Assembly (NCBI GenBank): GCA_013360295.1
Contig: JABWCL010000016.1
Location: 1-64,000, forward strand
Direction of reading: 5' to 3'
DNA: 64,000 nucleotides
Origin: Ignavibacteriaceae bacterium
GTDB taxonomy: Bacteria > Bacteroidota > Ignavibacteria > Ignavibacteriales > Ignavibacteriaceae
In this document: positions 10,318-14,060 of the stretch, piece by piece
Position numbering within the stretch: the first letter of the stretch is position 1
How the letters are laid out: every line of letters begins with the position of its first letter
Notes under the pieces: generated by a model
Databases searched by the model: none
The model's input: only the letters and a program-made list of their open reading frames with translations
Told to the model about the DNA's origin: nothing
Position numbers and translations under genes: made by a program

Positions 10318-11237
10318 TAATTATTACCGGGCCAACAGGTTCCGGAAAAAGTGAGCTGGCTTTTCTTCTTGCTAAGACTCTCGGAACAGAGATCATTGTT
10401 GCTGACAGCAGGCAGATTTACAAGGAACTGGTGATCGGTTCAGCTCAACCTTCGAAAGACAAACAGCAGCAGATACGTTACCATCTGCTCAGCAGCCTGA
10501 ACCTGAGCGAAAATTTTAACGCCGCCAGATTTGAAGCATTGTCTGATTCAATCATAGGCAGCCTTTTAGGCGAAAATAAAATACCTGTCATAGAAGGAGG
10601 AGCGGGGTTATATTTGCGTGCCCTGATCGGAGGCATCGTGGAAATACCCGGTGAAACGGACGTTTACAGGCGGGAGTTAAATGACTTACTTCTCCGCGAA
10701 GGTCGTGAATTTGTTTATAATCTTTTGTGCGAAGAAGATCCCGAGACTGCAAAAACGCTTTTGCCACAAAATTATAAAAGGGTAATACGCGCTCTGGAAG
10801 TGAAGAGGGCGACGGGAAAATCAATTCAATGGTTTTTCAGCCACCAGGAGGTTAAGAGGAGTTACGATAGCCTGCAATTCGGGTTGCTGAGGGAGCGTGA
10901 TGATCTCTACAGAAGGATTAATGAGCGGGTGGACAAAATGATTGACGCGGGACTAGTAGAAGAAGTCAAAGGTATCCTTTCGGTAGGTTATGATGCCGGA
11001 ATCAATCCTCTGAATACCGTCGGTTATAAGGAGATAATTGCGTTTCTCAGAGGTGAATTTGAGCTCGATACAGCAATAGAATTAATTAAAAGAAATAGCC
11101 GTCACTATGCGAAAAGACAGATGACCTGGTTTCGAAAACAACCGGGAATTGAATGGTGTAGCATCACAAATGACGACGGATATAACAAAATAGTTGAAAA
11201 GATTATAAAAAAAATTCAAAAACCAAATGAAAGATAA
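10302..11237 (+). CDS. miaA: tRNA dimethylallyltransferase MiaA
   Basis: A 311-residue enzyme that adds a dimethylallyl group to A37 of tRNAs reading UNN codons. It has the P-loop GPTGSGKS at residues ~10-17, the DSRQIY motif (usually DSMQVY), GSAQPS, and GGAGLYLRAL. No ATG is available near the family N-terminus; TTG at 10302 is chosen because it gives the normal short lead MEKRVVIITGPTG and has a purine-rich GGAAGAGAAGG immediately upstream. The start overlaps pcm, and the stop overlaps the next gene by 11 bases. Confidence 0.95.
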   Translation: MEKRVVIITGPTGSGKSELAFLLAKTLGTEIIVADSRQIYKELVIGSAQPSKDKQQQIRYHLLSSLNLSENFNAARFEALSDSIIGSLLGENKIPVIEGGAGLYLRALIGGIVEIPGETDVYRRELNDLLLREGREFVYNLLCEEDPETAKTLLPQNYKRVIRALEVKRATGKSIQWFFSHQEVKRSYDSLQFGLLRERDDLYRRINERVDKMIDAGLVEEVKGILSVGYDAGINPLNTVGYKEIIAFLRGEFELDTAIELIKRNSRHYAKRQMTWFRKQPGIEWCSITNDDGYNKIVEKIIKKIQKPNER

Positions 11238-12591
11238 GATCAGAATTGCCTCCGGGCAGGGCTTTTGGGGTGACTTAATGGACGCTCCGGTTTACCAGGT
11301 AACCAGAGGTCAAATTGACTATCTCGTGATGGATTATCTTGCTGAAGTTACAATGTCAATTTTACAGAAGCAAAAGAATAAAAATCCCGAAATGGGTTAC
11401 GCGCGTGATATACCCGAATTGATGATAAAAATCCTTAGAAGCTGCAAGGAAAATAATATTAAAATCATCACAAACGGTGGCGGCGTGAATCCGGTTTCCT
11501 GCGCGAAAGCATGTAAGAAAGTTGCTGCTGATCTGGGTATTGAAGGGGTGAAAATTGCCGTAGTGCACGGTGATAATATCCTTAGTTCCATAGACGACCT
11601 GCTTGATAAAGGTGCGGGGTTAAGCAATATGGAGACAGGAGAACCTATAGAGGATGTTAAAAGCCGTTTCCTGAGTGCAAATGTATACTTCGGGGCTTTT
11701 CCAATTGTTGATGCGCTTGAAAAAGGTGCAGATATCGTTATTACGGGAAGGACTACAGATACAGGCTTGACTCTCGCTCCGATGATTTATGAATTTGGAT
11801 GGAAAGCAGATGACTGGGATCTGCTTTCAGCAGGAACAGTTGCCGGCCATATCCTCGAGTGCGGCGCTCAGGCAACCGGAGGAAATTTCCTTGGTGATTG
11901 GGAAAGTATCGAGAACTTTGAAGAAATCGGATTTCCTATTGCTGAAGCTTACCCTACCGGTGAAATAATTATTACGAAACACGAGTCGCTTGGCGGCCTG
12001 GTTAATGTGGAAACCGTGAGTGAACAACTGCTGTATGAGATCGGCGATCCAAAGAATTATATCACACCTGATTGTGTGGCTGACTTTACTACAATCAATC
12101 TGATCCAGACGGGTGAAAACCGGGTTGAAATTTTCGGAATAAAAGGCAAACCCGCTACACCATTTTATAAAGTCTCGTGTTCCTATGAGGACGGTTATTC
12201 CGCTGTAGGTACATTAACATACTCCTGGCCAAACGCTTTAACTAAGGCTAAAAAAGCTGATCTAATTCTTCGCGGCAGGCTCGAAAAACTCGGCTTGAAA
12301 TTTGATGAAATCCGGACAGAATTTGTGGGCTATAACGCTTGTCATGGACCTTTAGCTCCTGCCAGGGATGAAAATGAGATCAGCGAAATAATGTTGCGAG
12401 TAGCGGTAAGATCTCAGGATAAGTCTTCAGTGGAAAGGTTCGGAAGAGAGCTTGCTCCGCTGGTGCTCACCGGTCCCCCCTCAGTAACAGGATTTGCCGG
12501 TGGCAGACCGCGGCCGAGTGATGTTGTGGCGTACTGGCCGGCACTAATTGAGAAGAGTTTAGTGACTCCGATCGTTGAAATAGTAGAATAG
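11227..12591 (+). CDS. AtuA-family (DUF1446) protein, large part
   Basis: A 454-residue protein matching the N-terminal domain of the acyclic terpene utilisation AtuA family (DUF1446). Recognisable stretches are IASGQGFWGD at the start, ITNGGGVNP near residue 80, DIVITGRTTDTGLTLAP near residue 175 and the C-terminal GPPSVTGFAGGRPRPSDV. Family members are linked to acyl-CoA or terpenoid catabolism, but no reaction has been firmly assigned. In many bacteria it is one protein with a C-terminal ferredoxin-like domain; here that domain is the separate next gene. It overlaps miaA by 11 bases. Confidence 0.85.
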   Translation: MKDKIRIASGQGFWGDLMDAPVYQVTRGQIDYLVMDYLAEVTMSILQKQKNKNPEMGYARDIPELMIKILRSCKENNIKIITNGGGVNPVSCAKACKKVAADLGIEGVKIAVVHGDNILSSIDDLLDKGAGLSNMETGEPIEDVKSRFLSANVYFGAFPIVDALEKGADIVITGRTTDTGLTLAPMIYEFGWKADDWDLLSAGTVAGHILECGAQATGGNFLGDWESIENFEEIGFPIAEAYPTGEIIITKHESLGGLVNVETVSEQLLYEIGDPKNYITPDCVADFTTINLIQTGENRVEIFGIKGKPATPFYKVSCSYEDGYSAVGTLTYSWPNALTKAKKADLILRGRLEKLGLKFDEIRTEFVGYNACHGPLAPARDENEISEIMLRVAVRSQDKSSVERFGRELAPLVLTGPPSVTGFAGGRPRPSDVVAYWPALIEKSLVTPIVEIVE

Positions 12592-12599
12592 GAAAGATC

Positions 12600-12962
12600 A
12601 TGAAAAAGATTAAACTGATTGAATTCACACACGCCCGGAGTGGAGATAAAGGGGATGCTGCAAACGTTGGTGTTATTGCATTTACCAGACAGGGTTATAC
12701 TATTATAGATAAATATCTTACGGTCGATCGGGTGAAGCAATATTTTGACGGCATCTGTTTGGGTGATGTAATCAGATATGAATTACCTAATCTTAATGCA
12801 CTTAATTTTATACTAAATAATACACTCGGAGGCGGGGGTACCGTCTCCACAAAACTTGATGCACAGGGGAAAACCCTTGCATCTGCCATCCTTGGTTTAG
12901 AGATTGAAATTGAGGATAAAGAATTGAATTTATTAACACTTGAAAGTCCGGAGCACGATTAA
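12600..12962 (+). CDS. AtuA-like ferredoxin-fold protein (small partner)
   Basis: A 120-residue protein matching the C-terminal AtuA-like domain. It begins IKLIEFTHARSGDKGDAANVG, the family's hallmark with conserved SGDKGD, and contains a glycine-rich turn NNTLGGGGTVS. It starts eight bases after the large AtuA part and its stop shares one base with the prfB start (TAATG). Large and small parts together cover the full AtuA architecture, so they probably work as a complex. Confidence 0.85.
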   Translation: MKKIKLIEFTHARSGDKGDAANVGVIAFTRQGYTIIDKYLTVDRVKQYFDGICLGDVIRYELPNLNALNFILNNTLGGGGTVSTKLDAQGKTLASAILGLEIEIEDKELNLLTLESPEHD

Positions 12963-14060
12963 TGTTTGATGAGGAGAAAAGATCGCTAAAAGAACAAGAG
13001 ACCAGGGTAACTAATCTACGAGGTTTTCTTTAAATTAGACGACAGAATTAAACTACTCGAAAAATTGAAATCAGAGACCGAGGAAACCGGTTTCTGGAAT
13101 GACCAGAAAAAAGCTCAGAAAACCCTGCAAAGAATCAAGGAGGAGCAGGATTGGGTAAATCACTGGGAGAAAGTGAAAACGCAGTTAGATAACCTCGGCG
13201 AGTTCCTCGATTTAGCCGCATTGGAAGAAGATGAAAGCTTGGGAAGTGAAATAAATAATGAGCTTACCAGGCTGATTTCGAATGTTGATGAGCTTGAATT
13301 CAGAAATATGCTCAGCGGGAAAGATGATTCGAAGAACTGCATTCTCTCGATACATTCAGGAGCGGGCGGTACTGAAGCACAGGATTGGTCGGAAATGCTT
13401 ATGCGAATGTACTTAAGATGGGCTGAATCAAGGGGTTACAAAGCTTCAATTGTGGATATGCTTGATGGTGACGGAGCCGGAATTAAAAGCGCTACACTCG
13501 AGATAGTCGGTGATCATGCATTTGGATACCTGAAAGCTGAGAATGGAGTGCACAGGCTCGTGCGCATTTCTCCGTTCGACTCGAATAAGCGCAGGCACAC
13601 ATCTTTTGCCTCAGTTTTCGCGATACCTGAGATTGATGATGATATTGAAATTGAAATTAATCCCGCAGATTTAAGAATAGATACCTATCGCTCCGGTGGC
13701 AAGGGAGGGCAGAATGTTAATAAAGTTGAGACGGCCGTACGCATAACCCACATACCAAGCGGAATAGTAGCCGCGTGCCAAAGTGAGCGTTCTCAGACTC
13801 AGAACAAGACTAACGCGATGAAATTGCTTAAGTCAAAACTATACCAGGTTGAAAGAGAAAAACAGGAAGCCGAACTGGATGAAATCGAAAAGAGTAAACT
13901 GAAAATTGAATGGGGAAGCCAGATACGTTCTTATGTTTTTCATCCCTACAATATGGTTAAAGACCACAGGACCAATGTGGAAACTTCAGATGTTCAAGGT
14001 GTGATGGACGGGGCATTAGATGAGTTTATAAAATCGTTTTTATTAAAGTTTTCAAATTAG
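12962..14060 (+). CDS. prfB: Peptide chain release factor 2 (programmed +1 frameshift)
   Basis: Two overlapping frames make one protein. Frame one runs from ATG 12962 for 23 codons ([15 protein letters not shown], ending LRGFL) to a TAA at 13031-13033. Skipping T13031 continues in the next frame as [12 protein letters not shown] to the stop at 14058-14060, giving 365 residues, the usual RF2 length. The codon-recognition tripeptide SPF and the catalytic GGQ ([11 protein letters not shown]) are intact. The LRGFL sequence matches the RF2 segment just before the classical frameshift. RF2 reads UGA and UAA. The second frame alone has no ATG start and would lack the N-terminal segment. Confidence 0.93.
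13019..13034 (+). promoter_or_regulatory. prfB +1 frameshift site with UAA
   Basis: The sequence CGAGGTTTTCTTTAAA holds an internal Shine-Dalgarno-like GAGG, a short spacer, the slippery CTT codon and the in-frame stop TAA followed by A. The classical site is AGGGGG-TAT-CTT-TGA-C. The layout is conserved, but the stop is TAA, the base after it is A rather than C, and the internal SD is short and one base further away. Confidence 0.85.

Follow-up and report, generated by a model that had tools for sequence, protein, structure and literature searches.

Frameshifting in prfB, the gene for release factor 2 (RF2), is a textbook case of translational autoregulation, and the UGA stop at which it occurs is interpreted as evidence that RF2 monitors its own level. 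The consensus of the site has been written YTT_TRA_C (PMC3711429), and the E. coli CUU shift site has been assayed with UAG replacing UGA, with consistent values (PMC5009743; see also PMC8710568). The most closely related survey, which covers 8,164 genomes (Prince, Lin and Feaga 2025; PMC12421855), gives TGA for 98.6%, TAA for 1.4%, and no TAG, and it describes premature TAA as occurring in multiple phyla without being broadly fixed in clades. The UAA variant at prfB as such is thus already published. Among the titles listed by our literature searches, none concerned prfB of Ignavibacteriales.

The window analyzed here, a stretch of 64,000 nucleotides from an Ignavibacteriaceae genome, carries such a variant on its forward strand. 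The zero-frame leader ORF (12962–13033, +) opens with ATG and consists of 23 codons followed by a TAA stop. This premature in-frame stop (13031–13033, +), which is UGA in most bacteria, lies directly 3' of CTT and forms part of the slippery CTT-T (13028–13031, +), on which tRNA-Leu would be expected to move from CUU to UUU. An internal Shine-Dalgarno (SD)-like GAGGT (13020–13024, +) occupies the place of the E. coli AGGGGG; its spacing is the fixed one but the run is weak. The +4 base (13034, +) is A rather than the C that makes for a weak termination context, and after the shift it becomes the last base of AAA, the codon for Lys24. The main ORF (13032–14060, +) lies in the +1 frame and encodes RF2 residues 24–365, including residue 27 (GAC, Asp; 13041–13043, +), where most UAA genes have an acidic amino acid. 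When CTTT is taken as one Leu step, an unbroken RF2 of 365 residues is obtained, and its conceptual translation contains the junction LRGFL-KLDDR, so that the recoding site and the junction peptide proposed in an initial annotation of this DNA are both borne out. In place of the RF2-specific UGA there is a TAA, which is still a codon read by RF2. The leader ATG at 12962 shares its A with the stop of the upstream gene (TAATG), which encodes an AtuA ferredoxin-like domain protein, and this overlap suggests translational coupling. The region directly upstream of prfB (11227–12962) encodes, according to Pfam, this protein and an AtuA protein.

The product has the properties of RF2. Its +1-frame part scores 515.7 bits against the NCBIfam prfB model (cut-off 370), PCRF and RF-1 domains as well as the SPF and GGQ motifs are present, and E. 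coli RF2 (1gqe) is the best fold match of an AlphaFold2 model. A search of the same genome with the +1-frame protein matched prfB and prfA only, in one copy each; because prfB is single-copy, the shift would be needed to make the sole RF2 unless an unseen start is used. The two factors that, as the initial annotation stated, read UAA are therefore both encoded in this genome, and RF1 scores above the cut-off in 69 of the 80 genomes of the family, including this one. UGA accounts for 31% of 309 stops sampled in the genome, and the demand for RF2 is therefore real.

We searched the order, which judged by its named relatives is Ignavibacteriales, with the +1-frame protein and found prfB in 149 of 164 genomes; 144 of these loci were examined, and five that matched only in part and lacked the junction (G008, G029, G055, G074, and G148) were left out. 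The 144 loci comprise 65 with TAA, 72 with TGA, five single-frame genes that all belong to one genus (g30), and two that are cut before the site (G086 and G153). TAA thus occupies 65 of the 137 prfB frameshift sites in the order. None of the 60 sites considered in two further orders of the class (the best 30 of 37 and the best 30 of 39 matches) has it, all of them being TGA. By GTDB family, there are 14 TAA versus 53 TGA sites in the family of the window, 49 versus 16 in a second family, and two versus three in a third. The first family lies near Ignavibacterium and the second near Melioribacter, as judged from the 43 of 80 named records whose protein is identical to that of an order locus over the last 250 residues. 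The other 37 named relatives match no locus of the order and include 35 TGA genes, one single-frame gene, and one that is cut off; seven of these 37 share a gene with the 60 loci of the two other orders.

The only other genome of the genus that was compared (G001; record LaPlata-7m-b_bin-312), which has an RF2 85% identical to that of the window, also reads CTT TAA A. Relatives with TGA, which the initial annotation had set against its own reading, do occur and make up 53 of the 67 sites in the GTDB family of the window, but both genomes of the genus have TAA. The UAA trait is mosaic within this family. TAA is found in all 30 species, from 8 genera, of one subclade (SH-aLRT 96 and 93). In genus g30 (L221, L224, L218, L226, and L223), prfB is single-frame and the SD-like run has been lost in all five genes, and the frameshift was apparently lost in this genus. 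A record titled Ignavibacteriales (CG07; L083), unmatched to the loci of the order, has a further single-frame prfB; its junction reads CTC GAC, and upstream of it a G-rich run can still be seen.

Apart from the stop, most elements of the site are conserved together with UAA. An ATG lies exactly 23 codons 5' of the stop in all 65 TAA relatives and in 71 of the 72 TGA relatives, the remaining one having GTG. CTT-T is present at 65 of 65 TAA sites, though CTT represents 31% of the Leu codons elsewhere in these genes, and an SD-like G-purine-purine-G is kept in 65 of 65 UAA genes. This joint retention argues that frameshifting itself is not decaying, and because genus g30 lost the SD-like run in every gene, its retention with UAA points to use. 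By contrast, the +4 base is C at 62 of 72 UGA sites but at only 2 of 65 UAA sites, 60 of which have G or A. With the +4 C missing at 63 of 65 sites, the weak-context part of the control looks relaxed, and the suggestion of the initial annotation that control has been relaxed applies to this part only.

The short internal SD, which had been listed among the peculiarities of the locus, is present as a weak GAGG-type run but is not a feature of UAA. The mean duplex in the order is −6.66 kcal/mol at UAA sites (65 genes) and −6.92 kcal/mol at UGA sites, which are thus equally weak, compared with −11.43 and −10.21 kcal/mol in the two other orders. Loci of those orders with less than 42% G+C still have strong duplexes (−11.36 and −9.84 kcal/mol), so that base composition does not explain the weak SD. 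The anti-SD GGATCACCTCCTTTCT is intact in all three 16S genes found among nine relatives; the genome of the window and six of these nine relatives, several of which are single-contig, yielded no 16S rRNA gene. An SD-like motif is present at 67 of 207 ATG starts in the genome versus 12 in one shuffle, the starts being approximate.

A second zero-frame stop often lies nearby. Among the 65 UAA genes, 37 have a TGA three codons on; among the 72 UGA genes, 26 have a TGA two codons on and 23 a TAA three codons on. In the window the next zero-frame stop after 13034 is a TAA six codons on (region 13034–13060). Use of GAT for Asp26 is somewhat raised, at 41 of 45 and 51 of 58 cases compared with about 74% in the remainder of the gene (p 0.006 and 0.016 in binomial tests that ignore phylogeny). 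The pattern may simply follow from the amino acids encoded.

One point missing from the initial annotation is the change that UAA brings to the RF2 protein. The last two letters of the stop open the next codon, so that UGA-N encodes Asp or Glu and UAA-N encodes Lys or Asn: residue 24 is Asp in 69 and Glu in three UGA genes, and Lys in 60 and Asn in five UAA genes. At residue 27, 54 of the 65 UAA genes but 4 of the 72 UGA genes encode Asp or Glu, and this position is the best separator of the two groups among the alignment columns compared (0.835; next 0.615). An all-branch pairing test of the coupling between residues 24 and 27 gave 16 pairs, of which on average 9.9 agreed with expectation and 0.7 ran counter to it; a test restricted to supported branches comprises three pairs and has no power. 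In the RF2 model (39-row alignment, mean pLDDT 77.8), helices span residues 3–22 and 25–38, which places residue 24 at the start of the second helix. A figure in PMC13245932, according to its legend, sets the prfB site against the first two RF2 helices. On our model, Asp24 would cap the second helix, and with Lys24 the acidic residue three positions on may take over this role. UAA swaps Asp24 for Lys, probably via Asn, and RF2 would adapt with Asp or Glu at residue 27.

The history of the stop was followed on an RF2 tree of 152 rows, which represents one gene and has 43 of its 149 inner branches open, so that counts of changes on it are rough. To account for the stop states, 17 changes are required, and 16 if the region around the junction is removed. 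With the root fixed as TGA, a gains-only history takes 20 steps and a single gain requires 17 reversals, and a single clade of all UAA rows is rejected on this tree (p-AU 0.005). UAA appears to have been gained several times, with possible reversion, within an order whose internal SD is weak throughout. Among the five Asn24 genes, G065 and G131 retain Lys27, as do 17 of the 72 UGA genes, and they resemble fresh TGAC to TAAC changes; the three Glu24 UGA genes may have reverted from Lys24. In the tree, genus g30 is placed with a UAA species (SH-aLRT 85), and it bears the UAA-type pair K/R24 and E27 in all five genes, as expected if it descends from a UAA ancestor.

Judging from these patterns of conservation, we consider it likely that the locus is a functional +1 programmed frameshift site of the classical prfB type with UAA as its stop, and the best reading of the sequences is that frameshifting at UAA is kept by selection. 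A ribosome whose A site holds UAA while tRNA-Leu sits on CUU would pause, and the internal GAGGU would pair with the anti-SD. Unless a release factor binds, tRNA-Leu would slip to UUU, AAA (Lys24) would enter, and full RF2 would be made. We infer that shifting takes place here in vivo, with RF1 probably competing alongside RF2 at UAA. Work on E. coli leads one to expect stronger termination at UAA with A or G in the +4 position than at UGA-C, and together with the weak SD this means that efficient shifting is not self-evident. Because UAA is read by RF1 and RF2, the site would report the joint UAA-reading capacity of the cell, and a lower feedback gain on RF2 than at UGA would be expected. In a simple competition that we derived, RF2 output responds to the level of RF2 as −k2R2/(kfs + k2R2) at UGA; at UAA the expression becomes −k2R2/(kfs + k1R1 + k2R2), where the k1R1 term makes the response to RF2 weaker and answerable to RF1. 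The degree of weakening hinges on the share of RF1 at UAA; according to PMC12421855, UAA may be read mainly by RF2 in most taxa, in which case the feedback would stay nearly intact. A more far-reaching proposal, which we put forward tentatively and hold to be doubtful, is that prfB in UAA lineages would be a sensor of joint RF1 and RF2 capacity at UAA, with RF1 cross-regulating RF2, and further that the near-universal conservation of UGA-C would be partly a protein constraint, the site having to encode Asp24 at the start of the second helix, with UAA spreading only where RF2 tolerates Lys24 together with an acidic residue 27.

UAA could alternatively be a relaxed, near-neutral step toward loss of the frameshift in an order where control of RF2 is irrelevant, an explanation with which the order-wide weakness of the internal SD, the missing +4 C, and the grouping of the single-frame genus g30 with a UAA species, with its UAA-type residues 24 and 27, would all agree. 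However, every UAA gene retains CTT-T, the length of the leader, and the SD-like run, and the 30-species UAA clade has no single-frame member. With RF2 encoded by a single-copy gene, the shift is moreover still needed, and we regard such drift toward loss as unlikely. It has also to be considered that shifting might be too efficient in these cells, for example in those without RF3, and that UAA restores the proper level of RF2. RF3 was not found in 32 of 45 UAA versus 21 of 44 UGA genomes (Fisher p 0.03), the genome of the window being among those without an RF3 (prfC) match, and E. coli K-12 without RF3 shifts at about 47% instead of 28% (PMC5373646). This idea is improbable in our view, since 13 UAA genomes possess RF3, independent pairs show no trend (and have no power), and RF3 occurs in only 109 of 300 sampled genomes outside the order, yet all 60 sites in the two other orders are UGA. 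We rejected loss of RF3 as a driver, the association being weak and uncontrolled. Across the 391 sampled genomes of the class, RF3 is patchy (147 at E 1e-120, 145 over the cut-off), with 38 in the 91 genomes of the order from the same draw.

An assembly or sequencing error, by which the true gene would be single-frame or the true site TGA, was raised in the initial annotation as an indel near 13031. Draft assemblies are common among the genomes, and the site sits in CTTTAAA; nevertheless, the same CTT TAA A in G001 and CTT TAA in 65 genomes of the order, including the single-contig assemblies G140 and G129, make an indel artefact very unlikely, and the named TAA genomes derive from many different isolates. 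The relatives in effect refute this reading, to which we attach practically no weight.

Stop-codon usage was rejected as a driver: TGA ends 20.1% of 478 ORFs in stretches with UAA sites and 19.0% of 521 in stretches with UGA sites (Fisher p 0.69), counting ORFs of at least 150 residues in the fetched stretches only. Altered codon recognition by RF2 was rejected as well, as SPF is present in 152 of 152 RF2 rows (GGQ in 151 of 152) and the residue aligned with E. coli 246, unread in 42 of the 152 rows, is Ser or Ala in both groups wherever the pattern matched. The earlier proposal that another signal supports the shift found nothing convincing in its favor: there is no Rfam match in 12500–13500, and folding of the 75 nt downstream differs between UAA and UGA sites (mean z −0.47 versus 0.07; p 0.009, phylogeny ignored) by too slight an amount to carry weight.

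UAA can be stable at the prfB site, and a coding need for Asp24 is suggested as one among the reasons for the retention of UGA-C elsewhere. An order in which UAA was seemingly gained repeatedly and kept offers a natural experiment in which stop identity, +4 base, internal SD, and encoded residue are separated. We found no mention of the +4 change or of the coupling of residues 24 and 27 in the consulted sections of PMC12421855; the named genomes here are mostly metagenome assemblies, which a survey of RefSeq may have overlooked.

The site of the window shares with E. coli-type prfB (CUU UGA C) its position, leader, CUU-U slip, spacing of the internal SD, and +1 frame, and differs from it in having UAA rather than UGA, A rather than C at +4, a weaker internal SD, and Lys rather than Asp as the first shifted residue. 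Single-frame prfB genes, such as those of genus g30 and of Actinomycetota (PMC12421855), likewise encode RF2, and those of g30 share K/R24 and E27, but they are without the premature stop, the SD-like run, and the frameshift. The motif CTTTAA is common to the site of the window and the TAA sites described in that survey; whereas those sites are scattered, TAA in Ignavibacteriales is found at nearly half of all sites and throughout a subclade of 30 species, which makes this order an exception to the non-fixation of TAA as published there.
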